From assembly GCA_026770025.1 (NCBI GenBank), contig JAMXDE010000031.1, positions 558,001 to 622,000 on the forward strand: 64,000 nt of DNA. The letters are read 5' to 3'. The first letter of the stretch is position 1. The number at the start of each line of letters is the position of its first letter. Under the pieces are notes generated by a model. It did no database searches. It saw only the letters and a list, made by a program, of their open reading frames with translations, and was not told the origin of the DNA. A program made the translations under genes and the position numbers. Of the stretch, positions 29,910 through 49,160 are shown piece after piece. The DNA is from Craspedostauros australis. Its lineage: Eukaryota; Bacillariophyta; Bacillariophyceae; Mastogloiales; Achnanthaceae.

Positions 29910-30776
29910 CTTCTCTGTTTCACTTTGCGACGAGTGGTGTCGATCCCAAAGCCCGTCTTTCTGCGGTGATCTGTCCTGACACGATGGCTTGCTTTCGTTT
30001 CCTTCCCCCGCCGACTCTCGCTCACCGACTCTCGCTCACCTCCTCTCGCCACGGACAAGAAACGTGTGGATACGCTCGTTGAAGCGTGGATTGGTTCTTC
30101 TCAGTCGACTAATGCGACTAGCAGTTGGCGACATCTTGGCGCGAGTTGTTTTTTGGCGCCTTTCCGCGTTAACGTCATTTAACGCCATTCTGGTCTCCAA
30201 CCAACACGCTCTCGATTCTCACTTCTAACGGTCAAGTTGAAGTTCATGTTGTTCCAGCTTGATTGTCGTGTTTGACAACGTTCTTCAGCATCATCATCTA
30301 GTCTCTTCTTCGTAGCATGTTCTCGTTGTTCGGTTTTTGCGTGGTTTGTTGTGCGAACCAGCGAGAAGAAGAAATGATTCCGTTCCCGTTTTGTGTTCTC
30401 ACAACCACGGAAACAGAACCGTTGGTGTGACACATGTACACATCGCCACGAGGTTTTTTTGGATCTCTCATTTCGTCTCTCTGTTCGTTGTGCGAAAGGG
30501 CGTTTGTGACCGACGCAACAAAGATCTCTGATTGTGCACATTGAATCTGGATTGCACAAGTGGTCCTGTCCCTTCTGCCTTGGTCTGCCCAGTCTGTTGC
30601 GGTTATTGCAATACTTCTCGTACGAGGATTGCGGCATCCTCATTGCTTCGAACTCGGAGAAGAGGGCAGAGAATAGGGCGAGGCCAAGATACACAACCAC
30701 AACAACCACAACAACCATCGCACACGCAAGCACAAGCGTAAACGCGAAGGCAACCTCGGAGGCAGTTCAGGCGACG
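29910..30776. other. Divergent promoter region, glycosyltransferase/TrmO
   Basis: No gene was seen. The 340 bases before the TrmO-like start (30437-30776) contain no plus-strand ATG, which supports 30777 as the start even though the frame is open back to 30534. Confidence 0.5.
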
Positions 30777-33700
30777 ATGTGCCGAAGAAGACACGGTCAC
30801 AGCGGCGCTGCGGCGCATGGACCAGCAGCTGTGGCGTCGCCGGCCATGGCCATTGCAGCGACGCTCGTGTCTGTCGCATCGCTGGCGGTTGCGTACGTCT
30901 ACCGTCAGAAGCAGAAGCGCCAGGCGAAGACTATCGAGGAGCTCGAAGAGCAGCTGAGGAATCAGGCGCAGAGCGGAGGACAGACAAGCCGGTCGGTTGA
31001 CTTCTCCGCCTACGCAGGAGGCAAGAAGGCACGATCGTCTTCATCTTCGGCGGCAGGGACTGCAGGAACTGCAGGCACAAAGCCATCAACTGACGGAAAG
31101 GAGAATGAGAAGCAGCAGAATACGCAAAAGAAGCAAAAGAAGCTGACGCTGGAAGACACCCACGCACTGTACGAAGATGGTCTGCGCGTCAAGCCGATCG
31201 GCACGGTCCGTTCCATCTACCGCCTCTGCGTGGGGACCCCGCGACAGGGGTTGCTGGCGCCACACGCTCGTGGCCGCATCGACCTGCTCAACGTGGGCAA
31301 TTCGTTCGCGCAGCACTCTGTGCAGGGACTGGAAGGTTACTCCCACATCTGGGTGGTGTTCATCTTCCATCTCAACACCCAAGCCAAGAGCGGCTCATCC
31401 AGAATCACCACGAAGGTCGCACCGCCGGCGCTCGGCGGGAAGAAGGTCGGGATTCTGGCAACTCGCACGCCCCATCGGTTCAACCCCGTGGGCCTCACGT
31501 TGTGCAAGCTCGATCGCGTCGAAGTCGAGGGGCAGAACGTGTCCTTGCACATCTCCGGCCTGGATCTGGTGGATGGCACACCCGTGTTGGACATCAAGCC
31601 CTTCGTGCCTGTCTACGACACAGTTCCACCAGAGCAAGTGAGTCTGCCACCGTGGGTGTCTGGTGGATTGGCGACGCAACGCAAGGTCACGGTCACCAAA
31701 CTCGCCAAGGATGAACTCAGAACGATCCTCGAGAAGCACCCGGACGCTTTGGAATTCTACGGTCCCCAGGCCAATGCACCATCCGCAAGCAAGATCGGCG
31801 GCGGAGATGCGGCCTCGAAGCCCATCGACGCAACAGTAGACGACGTGCTGGGTTGCATCCAGCAGGTGCTGTCCATGGACGTCCGAAGCTCATGGCAAAC
31901 GCGGAAGGCGCGCGAAGGCAAGTTCCAGGCGGAGCGTGCTGGTCGCGTCGTCGAAACCGCGGGCGGAACGAACATGGTCGAAGCGTCGGAAGATGACGCA
32001 TCTTCGCCAACGCTCCTGTGCACGCAGCAGCTGGACAACTTGCTTGTTCACTACTCCGTATCGGAAAGTGCCGACAGGAAGCGTGACACGTCGGAAGGCA
32101 GCGGCGCCGAAGACACCATCTTCGTCAAGACGATCCAGCTGCTCAACGAACCAACGTCCTCGGTCACTTCAACCGTTCGGACTTTGCCGGAGGACAAGGC
32201 GTCGAAGTCACCGAAGGTTGCGTTGAAGCATACTCAGTATCCGGTACAGCCCAACAACCAAGGAAAGGGCACCCTCAACCTCCCCAAACTCAAGAAGGTC
32301 GTCACACCAACGGCGGATGCAAAATCTAAAGCTGAGGAAGATGCTTTCCACTTCCGCGACTACCGCCGACTCAAGAAGTACTGGAACACAGCAGCCACTA
32401 ACAATACACCAGACGGTGTTCTCCCAGATCGCCCACGCACGGGTGGCCCCGGATCGTCGTCCCATCATTCATCGCGTAGAGGATACGGCCATTCGGACGG
32501 CGCCAGCATCCGATCATCTGCGCCCTCATCGGCCGCCACCACACCCACGTCGTCGCCCCAATCACATGCTCGTGCGAACAGATCAGTGATGATGTCTGGC
32601 TCCTCAATCAACATAGCGAAGTTGACGGCGGGTGACAACCAAGTGGATGATTCCAAGCCGGTAGAGGTCACAACCAGCGATGAATCGGCCAACCAGAATC
32701 AGTTGCCATCAGTTGTGGAAACAAGGCCCATGGAAGCTGATACACAAGATGTGGGCGGTTTCAAGGTCGCAAAGAAGAAGGCGGATGAGCCAGTGGCACC
32801 AGTTTCTGCAACAACCGCGGACGTTGGTGGATTCAAGGTTGCAAAGAAAGTGGAGACGCCAGATGCTGCAGCAGCGGCAACAACGGAAGATGTCGGAGGG
32901 TTCAAGATCGCAAAGAAAGCGGATCCACCAAGTCCAGCGACGACCGCTGATGTCGGTGGTTTCAAGGTTGCAAAGAAGGCGGACGAAACGGCTCCTGTGT
33001 CGACAACTGATGTCGGCGGGTTCAAGGTCGCGAAGAAAGTGGATGAACCAGTTGCTGCTGCAACAGCGGCAACAACGGAAGATGTCGGAGGGTTCAAGAT
33101 CGCGAAGAAGACGGAGACGGAGATAGAGACGCCAGATGCTGCAGCAGTGGCAGCAACAGAAGATGTTGGTGGATTCAAGGTCGCGAAGAAGATGGACGAA
33201 GCAGCTTCTCCTGCAACGGCTGATGTCGGTGGTTTCAAGGTTGCCAAGAAGACGGAGACGGAGATAGAGACGCCAGATGTTGCAGCAGTTACGGCAACGG
33301 AAGATATTGGCGGCTTCAAGGTTGCAAAGAAAGCAGATGAGCCGGTTGCAGTGACGACAGCTGATGTTGGCGGATTCCAGGTCGCCAAGAAAGCAGCTCC
33401 TGCAGCGGCGGTGGCGGCGTCAACAGACGTTGGCGGATTCAAGGTGGCAAAACAGGTAGAACTTCCACAACAGGACATTGAAACAACGATGACAGAGGAG
33501 GTGAGCGGTTTCAAGGTCGCAAAGAAGGACGACGATGCAGCGCCAACACATGACGAAAGCGGACCACCATCCTCTTCACCGAACGGAGCAGCAACAACAA
33601 CAACAACAGCGCAGGAAGGTGTGGCGGCTGAAGATGCCAAAGCCAAGAATGAGGATGTCGACGCCAGCGATGTTGTATCTGACCAGAAGAACGCACCAAC

Positions 33701-33959
33701 ACACGCGTCTGACGACTGGAGTTTGGTCGCCAACGAGCAATCCTCTCCCGAACAGTCATCCGATGAGCCTGATGATACAGACAAAGGCGAAGAGGTAGAC
33801 AAAGCGGGCGTTGCGGAGTCGAACAAGGTTCAGGACGCAGACAGTGCAGAAGGTACTGCGAACGTTGCACACGAGGACGAAGCCGAAAAGGATACCGGCA
33901 CGGCCAAAGCGGACGACGCAAATGAAAGCACTGAAACGGCGCAAGCTGATTCCGAATAA
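30777..33959 (+). CDS. TRMO: TrmO-type tRNA methyltransferase fused to a tandem-repeat C-terminus
   Basis: Single exon, 1,060 residues. A hydrophobic segment near residues 22-42 (AMAIAATLVSVASLAVAYVY) looks like a membrane anchor, followed by a basic coiled segment. Residues about 139-281 form a TrmO/YaeB domain: KPIGTVRSIY, GYSHIWVVFIFH, RTPHRFNPVGLTL and GTPVLDIKPF. TrmO methylates N6-threonylcarbamoyladenosine at tRNA position 37 using S-adenosylmethionine. The Ser/Thr-rich middle has no known domain. Residues about 657-917 are twelve copies of a unit with core DVGGFKVAKK, and the end is acidic and disordered. Human TRMO is much shorter. The coding-like frame continues past the TAA for 42 codons (see the entry after it). 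Confidence 0.9.
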   Translation: MCRRRHGHSGAAAHGPAAVASPAMAIAATLVSVASLAVAYVYRQKQKRQAKTIEELEEQLRNQAQSGGQTSRSVDFSAYAGGKKARSSSSSAAGTAGTAGTKPSTDGKENEKQQNTQKKQKKLTLEDTHALYEDGLRVKPIGTVRSIYRLCVGTPRQGLLAPHARGRIDLLNVGNSFAQHSVQGLEGYSHIWVVFIFHLNTQAKSGSSRITTKVAPPALGGKKVGILATRTPHRFNPVGLTLCKLDRVEVEGQNVSLHISGLDLVDGTPVLDIKPFVPVYDTVPPEQVSLPPWVSGGLATQRKVTVTKLAKDELRTILEKHPDALEFYGPQANAPSASKIGGGDAASKPIDATVDDVLGCIQQVLSMDVRSSWQTRKAREGKFQAERAGRVVETAGGTNMVEASEDDASSPTLLCTQQLDNLLVHYSVSESADRKRDTSEGSGAEDTIFVKTIQLLNEPTSSVTSTVRTLPEDKASKSPKVALKHTQYPVQPNNQGKGTLNLPKLKKVVTPTADAKSKAEEDAFHFRDYRRLKKYWNTAATNNTPDGVLPDRPRTGGPGSSSHHSSRRGYGHSDGASIRSSAPSSAATTPTSSPQSHARANRSVMMSGSSINIAKLTAGDNQVDDSKPVEVTTSDESANQNQLPSVVETRPMEADTQDVGGFKVAKKKADEPVAPVSATTADVGGFKVAKKVETPDAAAAATTEDVGGFKIAKKADPPSPATTADVGGFKVAKKADETAPVSTTDVGGFKVAKKVDEPVAAATAATTEDVGGFKIAKKTETEIETPDAAAVAATEDVGGFKVAKKMDEAASPATADVGGFKVAKKTETEIETPDVAAVTATEDIGGFKVAKKADEPVAVTTADVGGFQVAKKAAPAAAVAASTDVGGFKVAKQVELPQQDIETTMTEEVSGFKVAKKDDDAAPTHDESGPPSSSPNGAATTTTTAQEGVAAEDAKAKNEDVDASDVVSDQKNAPTHASDDWSLVANEQSSPEQSSDEPDDTDKGEEVDKAGVAESNKVQDADSAEGTANVAHEDEAEKDTGTAKADDANESTETAQADSE
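32748..33527 (+). repeat. Twelve tandem coding repeats, core DVGGFKVAKK
   Basis: Twelve units of about 16-27 residues each have a nearly invariant core (D/E)(V/I)GGFK(V/I)AKK and a variable Ala/Thr/Pro/Glu spacer (for example TETEIETPDAA, seen twice). Exceptions are GGFQVAKK in copy 10, GGFKVAKQ in copy 11 and VSGFKVAKK in copy 12. The DNA is similar but not identical between copies, which suggests selection on the protein. Confidence 0.95.
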
Positions 33960-34786: not shown

Positions 34787-37612
34787 ATGCCATCATCCTC
34801 TTCGTCAAGACGCACACACGACACGACGAGCACAACATCAATGGGCAAACGAACACCACCCACGATCGTGACTCTTGATGTGCTCACTGACGGTTCCGAG
34901 TTTGCAGGTTCAGGCACCTTGTTCCTTTCAGTGTGGAAGGTCTCCAAAGCGCAACTTGATTTGTTGGGTCGCACCAGGCCTTCCTCTGACGATGATAGCA
35001 ACAGCGAAGACGAAAGCGATAGCGAGAGCAGTGAAGAAAGTGAAAGTGGAAGTGATGGGAGCTGTGACCATGGAAGTGAACAGAGCAGCAACGACTGCAG
35101 TGACAGAAGCAACGATAGCAACGATAGCAACAACGACGACTCCAACGCCAACATGACTCAAGGAGACCAAGCGCTGGCCAACCAACCGGCGGCACAGACG
35201 CAATCTGACGAGGACCTGCAAACCAAGATACGGCAAACGCTGTTCGAAGTGTTTGATCTTTCCCCACCGCTGGCTCGATATGCCATATCGGGCCTGGGAG
35301 ATGGCACCGCTCGGTTATGCGCGGACCAGCGATTCAAACTTTCAGCAACACGCAGCATCTTCCTTCCTCATGCCAGCGGCGCGTGTTGGGACGGGTTGAG
35401 CGCCTTGCTGTTTGCATTGCACAACGCAGGCGCTCCATCGCTGCACCTCGTTTCGCCACCGATCCCTCGTGTCCGCAACGGCAACTCAAGGCCGACTGAT
35501 AAGGTCGAGGCTCTGTCATCGTCGATCCTGTCGAAGCACAAACACCTGGACATACGGACATGTGAGGTGCCGGCTTCGAATGAGAGCCAGATGAAGAGCT
35601 GGTGGCAGGTGTACGATGATGAATTCATCCTCGTTCATGCAAGGGCAGTGACCAAGGACAGCGTTGCGTACATCTTCTCGGTGGTAGATCACACTACACC
35701 GGGAAGTAATAGCAATACGCACGCAGAAGAAGCAACAACAACGAAGACGATACCGACGACGACACCGACGACGACACCATCTTATGTCAACATCCTTACC
35801 GTACCACCAGAATGGGACGGCAACTCCCAAGAACTCGCGCAGATACTGAACGGGCCACTCCCTACTGTGGGTACAGCCACGTCGAAGTTGCGCATTGATT
35901 ACGTCATCCAGTCGCGGCCAGCACAGCATGCCAATGACAGCACGCACATCCGAACCAATGAACAGAGCCATGACAGTCCAACTATCATCACTACCTCTCC
36001 TCAAAATCAATCCGTCGACCCAGCACAATTGATCCAAAGTCAGTCGCTGCTGCGTGCATGTCACAAGGCCGTGCCGACCATGTTTCCTTCGACGACATTC
36101 GAGGATACGTCAGACGACCATGCATCTATGAGCGCGGATGTGAGATCAGACCGCGTTGCAAGCAGGCCCCACCAGCAGTTGCTACTATCCTCCTGCACGT
36201 CGATGGTATTGAAGATGAGGAACCACGAAGAAGTGTTTGTGGACCGTGCGCAAGAGATACGGCAGCGCCGAACCAACGAACGGAAACATCTGGAGCGTTT
36301 CGCAACGTCCTTCAAGTCTTTGAACGACTTTCAGCAACGTATCGATCAAGACGGCGCAGCACAACGACGGAGTCCGACAGTGGCGATCAAAGATGACGAT
36401 GAGATCGACCTTGACGATGACGACGAGGGTCAGGACGAAGATGCTGGCACTGGCGCTGGCGAAAACGAAGCCAGCAAAAGCAACGATGAAAATACAAAGA
36501 CGCCACCCGAAGCCGCACAATACCTTGACCGGGTACTGAACGAACCGCACCTTGTCGTTCTCGGAACTGGCTGCGCTTCGCCGTCAGCGATCCGCGGCGC
36601 ATCGGGGCATGCCGTCGTCTTTCCAGGACAACGAACGGCTTCAGGATCGATGCGCGACGAAGTTCTTTTGTTGGACTGCGGAGAAGCTGTGACGACGATG
36701 TTGCTGAGATATGTCAAGCACGTCGATTGGAAGACGTGCATCAAGGGTATTTGGATTTCCCATGCGCATCTGGATCACTTCGGTGGCCTGCCAACGCTGT
36801 TGCGGGTATTGATGAATGAGTCAGCTTCGAGGCAATCTTCTGCTGATGGTGGGGCAACGGATCCACGAGATCCAGATGAGCGCAACCCGCAAAACACGAA
36901 GTGGCAGCAACCATCGAAAATGCGACGGGTGGAAGCAGAGCCATTGTGGGTCATGGCGCCAGCCAAAGTCCTTGCCTACGTCGACGCCATGCTCCACTTG
37001 GATCGCGGATTCGACAGCAAGAAGAACAAACGATGGTTCGTGCCGCTGATGCATTTCTGTCAGCCACCGCGATCCAGATGGACTTGGTTCCAAAACGTAA
37101 AGGTCAACCACTCCTGCTGTCATCCGTACGGCCTGATCGTGGGGTGGGATGCGATCAACTCGACGGGGCAGCGTGAGTGCCGCTTCTTGTGCTTTTCGGG
37201 CGACACGCGCCCGTGCCACCAGCTTGTCGACGCGTGCCGCAGAGCGCTGGCTTCTACTGCGTCGCGGCTGCCGCTGGCACAGTCGTCAATGTCGCCTGCA
37301 GCAACCCAGTCAACAACACGGCATGACCTCAATCGCATGACGCTACTGCACGAGGCCACATTCAATCGCGACGACGCGGACCAGGCAATTCAGAAGAAGC
37401 ACGCCACTGTGGATGAAGCCATCCGGGTGGGCTTGGACATTCCCACCACGAGGATCCTCTTGACACATTTCTCGCATCGCTACGTCTCACAGGACCCGGA
37501 GTCGCTATTTTACAACCAGGAGTTCATCCGGCAGCAACTCGCGGAACGTAATTTGGGATGCCATACTGCCGCGGTTGGTTTAGCGGTCGATGGCATGATC
37601 GTGAAGCTTTGA
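34787..37612 (+). CDS. ELAC2: Long-form tRNase Z (ELAC2-like)
   Basis: Single exon, 941 residues, within the range of long tRNase Z proteins. The N-terminal half has the degenerate metallo-beta-lactamase domain: ARYAISGLGDGTARLC near 160, then RSIFLPHASGACWDGLSALL, interrupted by an acidic Ser/Asn-rich insert. The C-terminal catalytic half begins VVLGTGCASPS and has DCGEA, the zinc motif SHAHLDHFGG near 658, the Asp of SGDTR near 805, HEATF and LTHFSHRY near 894. The enzyme cleaves 3' trailers from precursor tRNAs in the nucleus and/or organelles. No clear targeting peptide is visible. A Met 18 codons in (MGKRTPP) is a possible alternative start. Confidence 0.92.
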   Translation: MPSSSSSRRTHDTTSTTSMGKRTPPTIVTLDVLTDGSEFAGSGTLFLSVWKVSKAQLDLLGRTRPSSDDDSNSEDESDSESSEESESGSDGSCDHGSEQSSNDCSDRSNDSNDSNNDDSNANMTQGDQALANQPAAQTQSDEDLQTKIRQTLFEVFDLSPPLARYAISGLGDGTARLCADQRFKLSATRSIFLPHASGACWDGLSALLFALHNAGAPSLHLVSPPIPRVRNGNSRPTDKVEALSSSILSKHKHLDIRTCEVPASNESQMKSWWQVYDDEFILVHARAVTKDSVAYIFSVVDHTTPGSNSNTHAEEATTTKTIPTTTPTTTPSYVNILTVPPEWDGNSQELAQILNGPLPTVGTATSKLRIDYVIQSRPAQHANDSTHIRTNEQSHDSPTIITTSPQNQSVDPAQLIQSQSLLRACHKAVPTMFPSTTFEDTSDDHASMSADVRSDRVASRPHQQLLLSSCTSMVLKMRNHEEVFVDRAQEIRQRRTNERKHLERFATSFKSLNDFQQRIDQDGAAQRRSPTVAIKDDDEIDLDDDDEGQDEDAGTGAGENEASKSNDENTKTPPEAAQYLDRVLNEPHLVVLGTGCASPSAIRGASGHAVVFPGQRTASGSMRDEVLLLDCGEAVTTMLLRYVKHVDWKTCIKGIWISHAHLDHFGGLPTLLRVLMNESASRQSSADGGATDPRDPDERNPQNTKWQQPSKMRRVEAEPLWVMAPAKVLAYVDAMLHLDRGFDSKKNKRWFVPLMHFCQPPRSRWTWFQNVKVNHSCCHPYGLIVGWDAINSTGQRECRFLCFSGDTRPCHQLVDACRRALASTASRLPLAQSSMSPAATQSTTRHDLNRMTLLHEATFNRDDADQAIQKKHATVDEAIRVGLDIPTTRILLTHFSHRYVSQDPESLFYNQEFIRQQLAERNLGCHTAAVGLAVDGMIVKL

Positions 37613-43639: not shown

Positions 43640-45067
43640 TCAACGTTGTCTTTTGCGAGATCTTGTCATTTTCTCGACATAGGACCTTGGTAGGACCTCG
43701 CAAGCCATGTCCACTGACGTCTTTCCGTCGTCGTTGGTCACAGTATAATCGATATTCAATTCGCGGTTTTGCAACAAGAGCTCGACCACATCCTTTCGCT
43801 TATACTCGCTTGCGGCATGCATTGGCGTGTTCCCACAGTCGTCTTGGGCATTGGCATCAATGCGATCCCCAAAGGATTCCATCAACAACTTCACCACCTC
43901 GGTGTGTCCGTATGCACACGCTTCATAGAATGGCGTTTGGTCCATCGAGTTTTTCTTGTTGACGTTTGGGTTTGCACCGGGCGACTTGATCATGAGCTCC
44001 ACCAGAGAAGCATTGCCGCTGACGCAAACGAGATGAAACGGCGTATTGCCATTTTCGTCTCTTGTGTTGCAAATCCTCTTGCGCACATCGCCTTCCACCA
44101 AGGCTTGCACCACGGAGGAGCGGTGATACTCGCAAGCGACATGGATTGCCGGCTTGCTCATCCAGTCTTGCTTGTACTGATTGACATTGCCTCCGTCTGG
44201 GTGGCACAAGAATTTGATCAAGTCAATATGCTTCTCGTCACATGCAATGTGCAGGGGTGTCCGGCTCTGCTCGTCTTGCTGATTGATACTTACCTTCACT
44301 TGAGGCGATTCTAGCAAGTACTTCACAACCTCCTTTTTGCCACTCTGGCAAGCGAAATGAAACACGGTCCAACCGTCTTCCTCTGTTTCGGATGGGTCTA
44401 CGTTCACCAACTTCGAATCTATGAGATATGCCACCAAGTCTTTGCTGCCGCTCTGGCAGGCGCAATGCAGGCAATTCCAACCCTCGACGGGCGTTCTCTC
44501 GTTGGGTTCCACGAGCGGCGGTTTCGATGTGATGAGATACTTGACCAGGTCTTTGCTACCGCTATTGCACGCCACATGCAATATCCCCCAATCGTTGTTG
44601 TCCAATGCAGCCTTGTCCACTTGCGCTTGCTTGGATTCAATCAGATATTTGACGACGCCAGTTTGTCCCTTTCGACATGCTGTCAACAGCGGCGTTTCCC
44701 CAATATCATTCTTGGTATTGATGTCGATTTCCTCGCGGTGTGACTCCACGAAATACTTGACAACCGAGACTGAACCACTTTCAGCAGCAACGTGAAACGC
44801 CGTCTGGTCCGTGTCGCGTCCCTTGGTATTCATGAGACCCTTCGATGTGTCTGATTTGATCATCGATCGGATCGTTCCGAGGTCGCCTCTTCGACAAGCA
44901 TCGTGAAAGTCTTCGACGCGGTCGGTCATACCTGAGGTCGGTTGCATGGATGCAAGTGGAATAGGAATTGGGTGTTGTGGTGATTGTGTTAGCTCGTGGC
45001 AACATTGAATCATCCATGCGTCTTGTCTGTCAGAATCAGCAAGTCGCCCAACCGATCGCTCACTCAT
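43640..45067 (-). CDS. Ankyrin-repeat protein, 475 aa
   Basis: Single exon. After a start that may lie at 45067 or at later in-frame Met codons (MQPTSGMTDRVEDFH), it consists almost entirely of about twelve ankyrin repeats of 33-38 residues, with cores such as TAFHVAAESG, TPLLTACRKG, TPLHIACDEK, TPFHLVCVSG and TPMHAASEYK. The end is basic (KMTRSRKRQR), which could be a nuclear localisation signal. The repeats suggest a binding scaffold and no catalytic domain is present. The gene is a relative of the larger ankyrin gene at 46767-49160 and on the same strand. A (GA)n tract (CT on the coding strand) lies immediately upstream. Confidence 0.88.
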   Translation of the reverse strand: MSERSVGRLADSDRQDAWMIQCCHELTQSPQHPIPIPLASMQPTSGMTDRVEDFHDACRRGDLGTIRSMIKSDTSKGLMNTKGRDTDQTAFHVAAESGSVSVVKYFVESHREEIDINTKNDIGETPLLTACRKGQTGVVKYLIESKQAQVDKAALDNNDWGILHVACNSGSKDLVKYLITSKPPLVEPNERTPVEGWNCLHCACQSGSKDLVAYLIDSKLVNVDPSETEEDGWTVFHFACQSGKKEVVKYLLESPQVKVSINQQDEQSRTPLHIACDEKHIDLIKFLCHPDGGNVNQYKQDWMSKPAIHVACEYHRSSVVQALVEGDVRKRICNTRDENGNTPFHLVCVSGNASLVELMIKSPGANPNVNKKNSMDQTPFYEACAYGHTEVVKLLMESFGDRIDANAQDDCGNTPMHAASEYKRKDVVELLLQNRELNIDYTVTNDDGKTSVDMACEVLPRSYVEKMTRSRKRQR

Positions 45068-45983
45068 TCAACAGAGAGAGAGAGAGACACGCACGCAGAT
45101 GATGCTTCGAGAACTGGTAGCTTGTTCACACGTACTGTGATGGTCTTCAGGGGGCTGCGGAAGCGGCACGTAGGTACGGGTGAAAGCGAGTGTATGGTGC
45201 GATTATTAGTATGTAGCTCGTGGATCCCGTTGCAACTCTGGGCGTGCGAGAGGTGATGCAGTGGCTGGCAAAAATGATGTGGGCTGAGACCCTGTTGTTC
45301 TGTGTGCAGCTGGGAGTGCGTTGATGCTCTGTTGGTGCGGGTAGGTGTGGTGAGTGTGGTGAGTGTGGTGAATGTGGTGGAACGACGCATCCTCATGGCA
45401 TTGTTGCCTCCGTCATGTTCGCTTCTGCTTCGGTTTGGGATTGCGTTCGATTGCGTTGCTTTCTGTGATGTGACACGGTGTCAGCTTCTGAGAATCCGTC
45501 GCAATATCCCGCGCAACGCCATCTACAGTTATTTTGACGTTAATTTCGCCCTCTCTTTCTGCTCTCTTGGTGACGGGAATCGTCCAATCCCGTGTCTTGT
45601 TCCAACAAATTCGGACAAGTCGAGCCTCGATGAGCACGTAGCGAACGCATGGCAGACGAGAACACGTCAAGGCGCCAAATTCCCACACCAACAAACACAT
45701 CACGTTTCTCACTCCGACAGGCGCCAAAACACAGCGAACAGGGAACACCAACCATGCACGCTTGTTCCGTTTCGAGTTGCGATCAACGAACGAGGGAAGG
45801 AAGATGCAATCCCAAAGACACAGCACCGCGCAAGCAAGAGGCCCATGTCCTTCAAACCAGAGCGTCAGCCTGGACAATCACAAGCATTCGACTACGTTCA
45901 CTTCCACATATCACACACATCATACTCGTGTGTGAGAATCAAGATCAGCGGTCGTTCACAAGGAGTCCCATCCAAGAATGTGA
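45068..45983. other. Intergenic region; possible 5' part of the BTB pseudogene
   Basis: A plus-strand frame open to 45997 contains a stretch (YVHFHISHTSYSCVRIKISG) that might be a former exon of the BTB gene, but no start or splice junction is convincing. A (GA)n tract lies at 45074-45089. Confidence 0.35.
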
Positions 45984-46685
45984 GAGAGTCTTGGTGAGGA
46001 CTGGTGTGACGAGAATGCAGCCACTGTCTATCCTGGCATCAACATCAGCATCAGCATCACCCAAAACCGACTCGACGCTCTTCATACCGACACCACGACG
46101 GACATCACGTTCCTGTGCGGCCGAGGTGACGAACAGCCACCCATCAAGGCAAACAGCGGTGTCTTGTTGGTCACTGTTCCATCCATCAAGTCGCTCATCG
46201 ATTCTGGAATCCACTATCAACTTCCAACCGAGGTGCCGCCATCCGTTTCCGCCAGAGTGACCATCCCGCTCTTCGAGTTTTGATGCCAAACACGTCCGAT
46301 ACATCATTCAATTCATCTATTCAGGTGAAGCATCGTTCAACAATCACACTGGTGACAATGGCAGTCCTGGCATGACCACACAAGATGATCTGCAACAAGT
46401 GATCCTTGTGGCCGACAAGTTCGGTTTTTGGAGACTCAAGCTGGTTGTCGAGGCTGAGCTGATCCGCAGGCACCTGGTAGAGGATACCATGGTTGATCTG
46501 CTATTATTCGCCGATCGAAGCAATTGCATGATGCTACGAGATGCGGCAATGAACATGGCATCTGCAAATGGGAACGCATCCTTTCCGCTCTTGGCAATGT
46601 CAACGAAAACAGCTTTGCATCAACCACGTGGCAGTCGCATCAACAGAAGAACAATGGATTGTTGCTCAAGTACAATCATGAATAG
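45984..46685 (+). pseudogene. BTB/POZ-domain pseudogene with two compensating frameshifts
   Basis: Three frame segments together form a BTB-like fold. Frame A (45984-46283) encodes DITFLCGRGDEQPPIKANSG and RVTIPLFEF, then meets TGA. The frame shifts at a TTTT run near 46279-46283 to FDAKHVRYIIQFIYSGEASF, continuing with VILVADKFGFWRLKLVVEAE and LLLFADRSNCMML. Near 46570 the sequence returns to frame A with ERILSALGNVNENSFAST, ending at TAG 46683-46685. BTB domains form dimers and bind Cul3 or other partners; a working copy would have been an adaptor. There is no start codon in frame A, so the 5' end is missing or was spliced. It lies between two ankyrin genes. Confidence 0.7.
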
Positions 46686-46766
46686 AAACACGGAGGGCTG
46701 CTTTATTAATTGCTATCCAGAATATATCTAGAGTGCTTGAACGATCCAGCACAGTTGTGATTGGAG

Positions 46767-49160
46767 CTACGCTGCTTTGCGATTATTGATTCCGATGCCT
46801 TGGTTCAAATTGATCCGCTTTTTTGCATCACGCAACAACGCAACGATGTCGCGCAACTTCTTCTTCTTGGCAATACCCAGCGCAGTTTCGCCATCGTTAT
46901 TCTTGATTTTCAAATCAAATGCCATGCCGGCGCTGGTGAGCAAGGCCTCTACCACTTCCTTGCAAGCATTCCTACTCGCCACATGCAATGCCGTATCGCC
47001 ATCTTGATTCTGAATCTTCGCATTCGCTCCTCCATCTGCTGCAATCAGCGACTCTGCCAGTTTTGGAAACCCTTGCCTGGCTGCGTGATGCAATGGTGTG
47101 TCGCCGCTCCTGTTCTGAATGTCTGCCAGTGGTTGTGCTGATGTGAGTAAGCGGTCCATGGCATCCCCTCTTTCGATTGTGCAGCCTTCATCTAAGTTGC
47201 GGTTCGAAATGACTTCTTTTCGGATGAGGTCATAGAGTTTCGTGAGCTTCATCTCTTGATCGACGGCAAACACTCTGTGATCGTTCCTTGAGCAGTGGGC
47301 TGGGGTGTCACCTGTGTTGTTTTGAATGCTGAGATCAAACCAATCTTCGTGAACTCCATTGAAGTACTCATCCTGGAAGCGATCTGATGTCCCATTTTGG
47401 TATGCAAGACGAAGGGCTGTGTTGCCATCATTATTCTGCGCATTGGCATCCACTTTCGGTTTCTTCAATCCAAGCAGCCTGTCGAGCATGTGAGTTTTTC
47501 TGTTCATGTACGCGAGGTGGAGCGGTGTATTGCCATCTTTGTTTTGGATGGTGCCATCGATGTCACAAGAACCAAAGTAATCCCACCAATCGGAATGATC
47601 GATCCAACTGGATCCCGCCAATAGGTGAAGTGCCGTGTTGCCATCGTTGTTTTGGAGTGTCAAGTCGAAATTCGGATCTCCATTCTTCCTGATGAGCCAA
47701 AGAAACAAAATGAAATCCCTCATTATCGCAAGATGAAGAGGCGTGTTGCCATCGTCATTTTGCAAGTTCGCGCTGATGTTGTTTTCATCTATCTCAAGCA
47801 GATACCCCAATAAGTCTGCAACAATTTTGGTGTCTACAGCAATATGGAGTGGTGTGTTCCCTGTGCTGTCTCTTGTGTGGAGACCGACGTCCATCTCATT
47901 CCATTCAATGAAGTACCTCACGATGGCAGCTTCCCCGGATTCGCAGGCGGAGTGGAATGGCGTGTGGCCTTTTGCATCATGGATGTCGAAATCAATGTCG
48001 ATTTGATTTGATTCCATGAGAAACCGGACCAGATCTTCTGTATCGTATCCGTACCTGCACGCCCAGTGAAAAGGTGTCTCACCGGCCTTGTTCTGGATGC
48101 TGAACGCGTTGTTGACTTGCCCCAATGCGAGTCCCACCAACGCCTTCATCAGACCTGTAGATCCTCTGTCGCATGCAGAGTGGATTGGTGTATTCCCTTC
48201 ATTGTCTTGTGCGCTGAGATCGATGGAAGCGAGGCCCACTTGGGCGAGATGTAGAGCCACGTCTTGACTATCATTCATGCATGCGCAATGGAACGGTGTC
48301 TGACCGGACGCGTTCGTCATTTGTAGATCGATCTTCGCTTTGTCCGAGTTCATGACGAGCTCAATCACCTCTCTTGATGCACTCTCGCAGGCCAGGTGGA
48401 ATGGTGTGTCGCCATCGTTGTCCGCGATGGTGAGGTCAATGTATGCTTGATCTGTTCGAAGCAGAAGCCCCAAAAACCGTCCACGCATAAATTGAGACAT
48501 GCGATGGGCCGGTGTTCTGCCGTATTTGTCTTGGATGTTGATATCAAGGCTGGATTGACAAGTATTGACGAGATACTCTATGCATTCGCTGGGGTATCCG
48601 CATGCACGTTGGAGTGCCGTGCAGCCATTGGAGTCCGTTGCGTTGCAAACAGTGTTCGTTCGGTCGGCCTCCATTAGGTACTTCAGCAAGCAAAGATCCC
48701 TGTTGACGGACACGATGTGAATTGGCATAGCACCAGAACGGTCACGAATGGACTGATCGACGTGAAGCTCCTCCGTTTTGCAGAGGTACTCGACCACGTC
48801 GGGAGAACGGTGGGTGCATGCAAGATGCAATGGCGTGCACAGGTCTCTGGTTTGCGCATTTGCATCAACATCGACTTGCGTCGATTCGACCAAGTACTTC
48901 ACAACGTGTATGTTTCCTCCACGACAAGCGTGATGAAACAGCGTGAAGCCGTTGGAGTCGGTTAATGTGCTGCTGATACGCGAGTGACTTGCTTCAATCA
49001 GACTCTTGACCTTGCGAAAATCCCCATCAAGACAAGCTTGCATCAACGGCGTTCTCCCTTGACCATCACATTGGAAGTCATCGATGGCGCGGTCCGATTG
49101 GTCCGTCTCAGGGTCTACCTTGTCGCAGGCGATGTGCGGAGCTTGGGACAGATCTGACAT
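46767..49160 (-). CDS. Large ankyrin-repeat protein, 797 aa, about 20 repeats
   Basis: Single exon from ATG at 49160. After about 35 residues it is a continuous array of about twenty ankyrin repeats, with very regular cores such as TPLHLACT, TPFHCACM, TPIHSACD, TPFHWACR, TPLHLAIM and TALHVASR, joined by NNDGN or QNKDGN linkers. It ends with a short basic tail (DAKKRINLNQG). No enzymatic or membrane domain is present. Such arrays act as protein-binding scaffolds; partners are unknown. Organisation and linker style match the 475-residue ankyrin gene, indicating a local duplication. The overlapping ORFs on the other strand are shadows of the repeats. Confidence 0.9.
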   Translation of the reverse strand: MSDLSQAPHIACDKVDPETDQSDRAIDDFQCDGQGRTPLMQACLDGDFRKVKSLIEASHSRISSTLTDSNGFTLFHHACRGGNIHVVKYLVESTQVDVDANAQTRDLCTPLHLACTHRSPDVVEYLCKTEELHVDQSIRDRSGAMPIHIVSVNRDLCLLKYLMEADRTNTVCNATDSNGCTALQRACGYPSECIEYLVNTCQSSLDINIQDKYGRTPAHRMSQFMRGRFLGLLLRTDQAYIDLTIADNDGDTPFHLACESASREVIELVMNSDKAKIDLQMTNASGQTPFHCACMNDSQDVALHLAQVGLASIDLSAQDNEGNTPIHSACDRGSTGLMKALVGLALGQVNNAFSIQNKAGETPFHWACRYGYDTEDLVRFLMESNQIDIDFDIHDAKGHTPFHSACESGEAAIVRYFIEWNEMDVGLHTRDSTGNTPLHIAVDTKIVADLLGYLLEIDENNISANLQNDDGNTPLHLAIMRDFILFLWLIRKNGDPNFDLTLQNNDGNTALHLLAGSSWIDHSDWWDYFGSCDIDGTIQNKDGNTPLHLAYMNRKTHMLDRLLGLKKPKVDANAQNNDGNTALRLAYQNGTSDRFQDEYFNGVHEDWFDLSIQNNTGDTPAHCSRNDHRVFAVDQEMKLTKLYDLIRKEVISNRNLDEGCTIERGDAMDRLLTSAQPLADIQNRSGDTPLHHAARQGFPKLAESLIAADGGANAKIQNQDGDTALHVASRNACKEVVEALLTSAGMAFDLKIKNNDGETALGIAKKKKLRDIVALLRDAKKRINLNQGIGINNRKAA

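Follow-up and report, generated by a model that had tools for sequence, protein, structure and literature searches.

The window analysed here, a stretch of 64,000 nucleotides from the diatom Craspedostauros australis, contains on its plus strand an open reading frame of 1060 amino acids, counted from the first ATG of the frame and without an internal stop. It joins a TrmO-type tRNA methyltransferase to an array of short, closely similar peptides. The features of this gene are the following.

30777..33959, plus strand: TrmO paralogue with array (single open reading frame; coding score in frame)
30843..30899, plus strand: N-terminal hydrophobic segment, aa 23-41, a predicted membrane anchor (hydropathy)
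31233..31619, plus strand: TrmO_N methyltransferase domain, aa 153-281, with Q157, R230, D263 and K274 (PF01980, TIGR00104, alignment)
31653..32150, plus strand: TrmO C-terminal domain with insertions, about aa 293-458, with D368-V-R370 at the DPRxxY position (alignment; right limit approximate)
32154..32747, plus strand: linker between enzyme and array, rich in Ser, Thr, Pro and Lys (translation, composition)
32748..33527, plus strand: array of twelve cores, [DE][VI][GS]GF[KQ][VI]AK[KQ], separated by spacers of 10-17 aa (pattern; selection test)
33073..33331, plus strand: 141-base repeat inside the array, its units duplicated together (Tandem Repeats Finder, 1.8 copies, 85% matches)
33528..33956, plus strand: acidic C-terminal tail of 143 aa (charge count)
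33711..33728, plus strand: DDWSLV, aa 979-984, a fit to the general ATG8-binding (LIR) consensus, possibly by chance

The combination of TrmO, array and hydrophobic N-terminus described in the earlier note was confirmed at this position, and its claim that a single reading frame carries enzyme and array was supported by codon usage. The score was trained on nine other open reading frames of the window and two from the same genome, all of them predicted only, and was read in 180-base blocks. It is above zero in the frame of the gene for each block from 30658 to the stop, and below zero past the stop. The weak blocks are those at 30658 (0.09, mainly upstream of the ATG), 31198 (0.10) and 32458 (0.02), where another frame is slightly higher (0.13, 0.16 and 0.15, respectively). 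Because the in-frame score remains positive to the stop, the TrmO domain and the array are read as one gene. An intron, or separate genes for TrmO and array, was rejected on the same score: splice-like matches within the frame are few (5' at 31638 and 33501; 3' at 32427 and 33755), and the intervening blocks score as coding, the weakest being that at 32458. An antisense frame of 375 aa over the array was also rejected, the minus-strand scores of blocks 32638 to 33718 being all negative. Downstream on the same strand, an open reading frame at 34787-37612 resembles a tRNase Z of the long form: Lactamase_B is matched at 2.6e-07, and the tRNase Z domain weakly, at E 0.0051 and under its cut-off. 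The adjacency of two tRNA-related genes may be coincidence. Two adjacent large frames of 475 and 797 aa at 43640-49160 on the minus strand appear, by eye, to be ankyrin-repeat-like.

The identification of the enzyme as TrmO was borne out by two profiles, each above its cut-off: PF01980 (TrmO_N; 7.1e-34, 116.9 bits against a cut-off of 26.8) and TIGR00104, the NCBIfam TrmO equivalog (101.1 bits against 93.25). Five sequences of solved structures were matched at E up to 1, and the top four are TrmO-family chains (best 7btu, 4.4e-28). A separate C-terminal TrmO domain was not reported by Pfam in the array protein. It has been reported for E. coli TrmO that AdoMet binding or methylation needs Q25, R92, D125, K136 and D194/R196 of the DPRxxY motif, of which the Asp and Arg were the residues mutated (PMC4132733). 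We looked at an alignment of six sequences (the array TrmO, an array-free paralogue from the same genome and four bacterial TrmO proteins, none of them from E. coli), onto which the E. coli residue numbers were mapped via motif and spacing. It can be seen that Q157, R230, D263, K274, D368 and R370 are invariant in all six. The DPRxxY motif reads DVRSSW in the array TrmO, so that Asp and Arg are kept while Pro is replaced by Val and Tyr by Trp; the paralogue has DPRSSH, and the Tyr is also missing from one of the four bacterial sequences. The array TrmO is probably an active methyltransferase.

The twelve cores span aa 658-917 and start at nucleotides 32748, 32820, 32889, 32949, 33009, 33081, 33162, 33222, 33303, 33363, 33426 and 33498. 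The description of twelve DVGGFKVAKK repeats holds as the count of a family, though not as one of identical copies: this exact sequence accounts for six cores, DVGGFKIAKK for two, and DIGGFKVAKK, DVGGFQVAKK, DVGGFKVAKQ and EVSGFKVAKK for the other four. The array exceeds chance; the 7-mer GGFKVAK occurs eight times, and when aa 641-1060 were shuffled 2000 times no 7-mer occurred more than twice. When a profile was built from 16 cores (these twelve and four from a second gene, on contig C18), the cores scored 28-36 bits and the next window in the three proteins compared scored -1.3, with no intermediate-scoring cores found in that scan.

That the core is kept while the spacers vary, as the earlier note had it, was upheld by substitution counts. 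Among the twelve window cores pN/pS is 0.077 in a comparison between copies within one genome; the pattern that picked the cores was itself drawn up from them, and this pushes pN down to some extent. The cores differ at 65% of synonymous and 5% of non-synonymous sites. Spacers of equal length (10 pairs) give 0.635, the four C18 cores 0.152, and cores compared between the two genes 0.115 (pS 0.62). Given pN/pS of about 0.08 in the cores against 0.64 in the spacers, the cores look held by selection at the protein level.

The suggestion to look for the motif in other proteins was fruitful. A genome search with the array protein found, besides itself, only the gene on contig C18 (E 2.5e-9), which lies on the minus strand and carries four cores, VGGFK[VI]AKK. 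Two exons (7072-6059 and 5827-2435 of locus L009), joined across a GTGAGC...TTTTCAG intron predicted by eye, would encode a protein of 1468 aa with three TFxP segments and long coiled-coil-like stretches rich in Ala, Glu, Lys and Arg. No Pfam match was found in it. For the first exon, neither the rest of the genome nor the solved structures offer a confident relative (best E 0.23 and 0.24, respectively). Outside the cores it shares with the array protein no 7-mers and a single 6-mer, AAAVAA, and its strongest hydrophobic segment reaches just 0.84. The core motif is thus not specific to TrmO, and since a further gene, unrelated in other respects, has it too, the reading of the array as a multivalent motif gains strength. 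At aa 799, 1218 and 1442 the C18 protein has three similar Trp-basic segments, TWADRLLGLGGKK, KWFNRIARRGR and RWKERLAKKSK, possibly amphipathic helices that bind membrane or calmodulin.

Pattern counts over the 74.8 Mb genome are lower bounds, and cores split by introns escape the search. A stricter pattern gave at least nine matches in two genes. GF[KQE][VIM]xKK gave at least 15 (11 in the array TrmO and four in C18; the reversed pattern gave two), and GFK[VIM]AK at least 16 in three genes (11, four and one in a formin; reversed pattern one). With mismatches allowed there were at least 18, namely 12 in the array TrmO, four in C18, one on contig C1 and one on contig C43 (two mismatches). DGFK[VIM]A matched at least five times, in the formin, in a hydrophobic frame of 420 aa without the following Lys and in three frames of 27-71 aa. 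A wide spread of the motif was not found in the assembly with these patterns, and it is repeated in two genes only. The strings GGFKVAKK, VGGFKV, GGFKIAK, GFKVAKK and DVGGFK are absent from the open-licence papers searched. A virus-borne motif was considered and rejected, scans of viral contigs (IMG/VR) having given just one single-copy match, VGGFKMAKK near the N-terminus of a 195-aa frame (L045 4763-5350, plus strand), which is probably chance. The genome that carries the array gene has at least 61 matches to the light-harvesting family PF00504, counted exon by exon; at the top-scoring locus lies a gene for an antenna protein whose presequence contains AAFAP, and among PDB chains the long LHCI chains of 9vfj match it best, followed by a fucoxanthin chlorophyll a/c protein (4.9e-32). 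Such matches and such a presequence fit a phototroph that is a diatom or closely related to one.

Part of the likeness among the cores is descent, for the 141-base block, within which units 6-7 and 8-9 fall, represents copies spread by duplication, and the array has grown partly in this way. One possibility is that the whole array is a low-complexity expansion, produced by slippage and unequal crossing-over, with copies that are alike through duplication and have no specific binding role. The nearest core by DNA does lie in the same gene for all twelve window cores (one of them tied with a C18 core), as such growth would leave it. However, the synonymous sites of the cores have diverged strongly (pS 0.65) and their amino acids hardly at all, while spacers of the same array change freely. 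In addition, the same core stands between different spacers in an unrelated gene, where three of the four cores have their closest DNA match among the window cores and not among the other C18 cores. Expansion without a binding role is therefore unlikely in our judgement.

Composition might suggest instead that the array is a nucleic-acid-binding tail whose lysines keep tRNA or rRNA near the methyltransferase, given that there are three Lys in ten of the twelve cores and two in each of the rest, and that the enzyme family acts on tRNA. It seems quite unlikely. The net charge is -6 for the array and -32 for the tail that follows, the C18 protein carries the same core without any Pfam match, and a Gly-Phe pair that never varies would rather be expected in a motif for docking to proteins.

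The core could also dock to the cytoskeleton or to one of its regulators, so that TrmO would be tethered at actin or microtubule structures. The sole further genome match to GFK[VIM]AK sits in a low-complexity part of a formin on contig C1 (L049 1-6747, minus strand; FH2 2.4e-69), at aa 596 of the part read, and the C18 protein is long and coiled-coil-like with its TFxP segments. But the formin copy, VDGFKIAKQ, is single and imperfect, and as the reversed pattern also has one match it may be chance; moreover, no Pfam domain was found in the C18 protein and no solved relative for its first exon. We consider docking to the cytoskeleton improbable. The N-terminal part of the formin is very long and of low complexity, with DPF, DPW and FxxF-like motifs. 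Right before FH2 there is a CCDC53-like segment (PF10152, 2.5e-07).

PF01980 matches at least twice in the 74.8 Mb genome, in the array gene and in an open reading frame of 465 aa on contig C16 (L034:4220-5617). The latter protein shows a hydrophobic N-terminus (1.71, aa 19-37), a charged stretch, the TrmO domain and DPRSSH, and no array cores were found in it by the profile scan. The earlier note had named relatives with an array-free TrmO as what would speak against its reading; a TrmO of this kind is present in the same genome. Because this second TrmO is without the array, the array is, on sequence grounds, an addition to one paralogue and not part of how TrmO works in Craspedostauros australis.

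The hydrophobic N-terminus that had been noted was found again: aa 23-41 have a mean hydropathy of 2.09, the strongest in the protein (next 0.97), and the basic stretch RQKQKRQAK follows directly. The basic flank, together with a C18 protein that lacks a strong hydrophobic segment, suggests that aa 23-41 would anchor the array TrmO in a membrane with its C-terminus in the cytosol. The predicted anchor is not peculiar to the array protein, since the array-free paralogue also begins with a hydrophobic segment; an anchor-like start is common to both, and the array is confined to one. A weak similarity of the N-terminus to the membrane-protein family PF24838 (E 0.18 and 0.086) fell under the cut-off and was left unused. 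The same region could alternatively be a cleaved signal or a plastid presequence, giving the protein a plastid or secretory role in which the Lys-rich repeats act, silica formation being one example. In favour of this, a short signal-like segment would begin at a second Met, aa 24, and diatom silica proteins are Lys-rich. Such a role is very unlikely, in view of the similar N-terminal layout of the array-free paralogue, the weak hydrophobicity of the C18 protein and a TrmO substrate that is tRNA.

The low-complexity C-terminal tail is, judging from composition, probably disordered. DDWSLV in its acidic end part fits the general ATG8-binding (LIR) consensus, but as a single match in a long tail it is weak and may be chance. 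The core itself was also considered as a LIR and dropped, because GFKVA has no aliphatic residue at +3 of that consensus; only DDWSLV in the acidic tail fits.

Taken together, the above results are best explained if one TrmO copy, arisen by duplication, membrane-anchored and probably active, acquired a tail with many docking motifs, by which it would bind a hub that it shares with the coiled-coil-like C18 protein, a reading to which we give a probability of about one in two. Since the searches found the tag in repeated form in just one further gene, its probable role is to dock the enzyme to a putative partner. The N-terminal segment would anchor the enzyme in a membrane, leaving the remainder in the cytosol, and each core would act as a short linear motif held by one pocket of the putative hub, with twelve copies giving avidity or cross-linking. 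The C18 protein, with four copies, would dock to the same hub. That this protein lacks a strong hydrophobic segment would place the shared hub in the cytosol or nucleus, which fits an anchor with a cytosolic C-terminus. TrmO activity (t6A37 to m6t6A37 in cytosolic tRNA) would then be concentrated at a membrane-linked scaffold, and the array-free paralogue would serve the remainder of the cell. What had first been proposed for this locus is supported in part. A bolder version is unlikely. In it GGFKVAKK would be a linear motif not described before, for which this algal lineage has a dedicated receptor, and a single hub would bring together the membrane-anchored methyltransferase for tRNA A37, the coiled-coil scaffold and perhaps a formin, so that some of the tRNA modification would take place at an assembly linked to cytoskeleton or membrane.

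The array TrmO shares with TrmO, YaeB and human TRMO (UPF0066, class VIII AdoMet methyltransferases) the TrmO_N domain, the tested AdoMet residues and a C-terminal domain with the Asp and Arg of DPRxxY. In contrast to a typical TrmO it has an extra hydrophobic N-terminus, large insertions and a low-complexity C-terminal extension with the array, all of which are missing from the four bacterial proteins compared (244-258 aa). Large internal insertions are reported for mammalian homologues (PMC4132733), and Drosophila dTrmO is described with an additional N-terminal domain of about 100 residues (PMC12977680).

Yeast Tcd1 and Tcd2, which convert t6A37 to ct6A37, are also t6A37 enzymes with an N-terminal transmembrane segment; this is reported to lie in the outer mitochondrial membrane, facing the cytosol, and to be dispensable for activity (PMC13139853). 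Unlike the array TrmO, they are an unrelated enzyme with another reaction, and the passages of that source on Tcd1/Tcd2 describe no array (PMC13139853). With membrane-anchored t6A37 enzymes on record, the predicted anchor is less surprising than the array. Mammalian CDKAL1 (t6A37 to ms2t6A37) is said, from work by Brambillasca in 2012 (cited in PMC7900539), to be membrane-anchored as well; it is a radical-SAM enzyme with an ER tail anchor, in which it differs from the array TrmO, and we know of no array in it.

The array itself resembles the disordered algal proteins PYCO1 and EPYC1, in which many copies of a short motif are conserved against varying spacers; further pyrenoid proteins contain variants of EPYC1's sticker, and the stickers of both bind Rubisco, that of PYCO1 being KWSPR (PMC10288592). 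KWSPR is absent from the array protein, and no link of it to Rubisco was found. The searches found this short peptide handle repeated in two genes only, so its receptor could be fished directly, with the array-free paralogue in the same cell as a natural control. In yeast (Tcd1/2) and in mammals (CDKAL1), the final steps on t6A37 are carried out by membrane-bound enzymes; if the preferred reading is true, the array TrmO would add to these another t6A37 enzyme that has a membrane segment, in this case with a docking handle of twelve copies built into the same chain.
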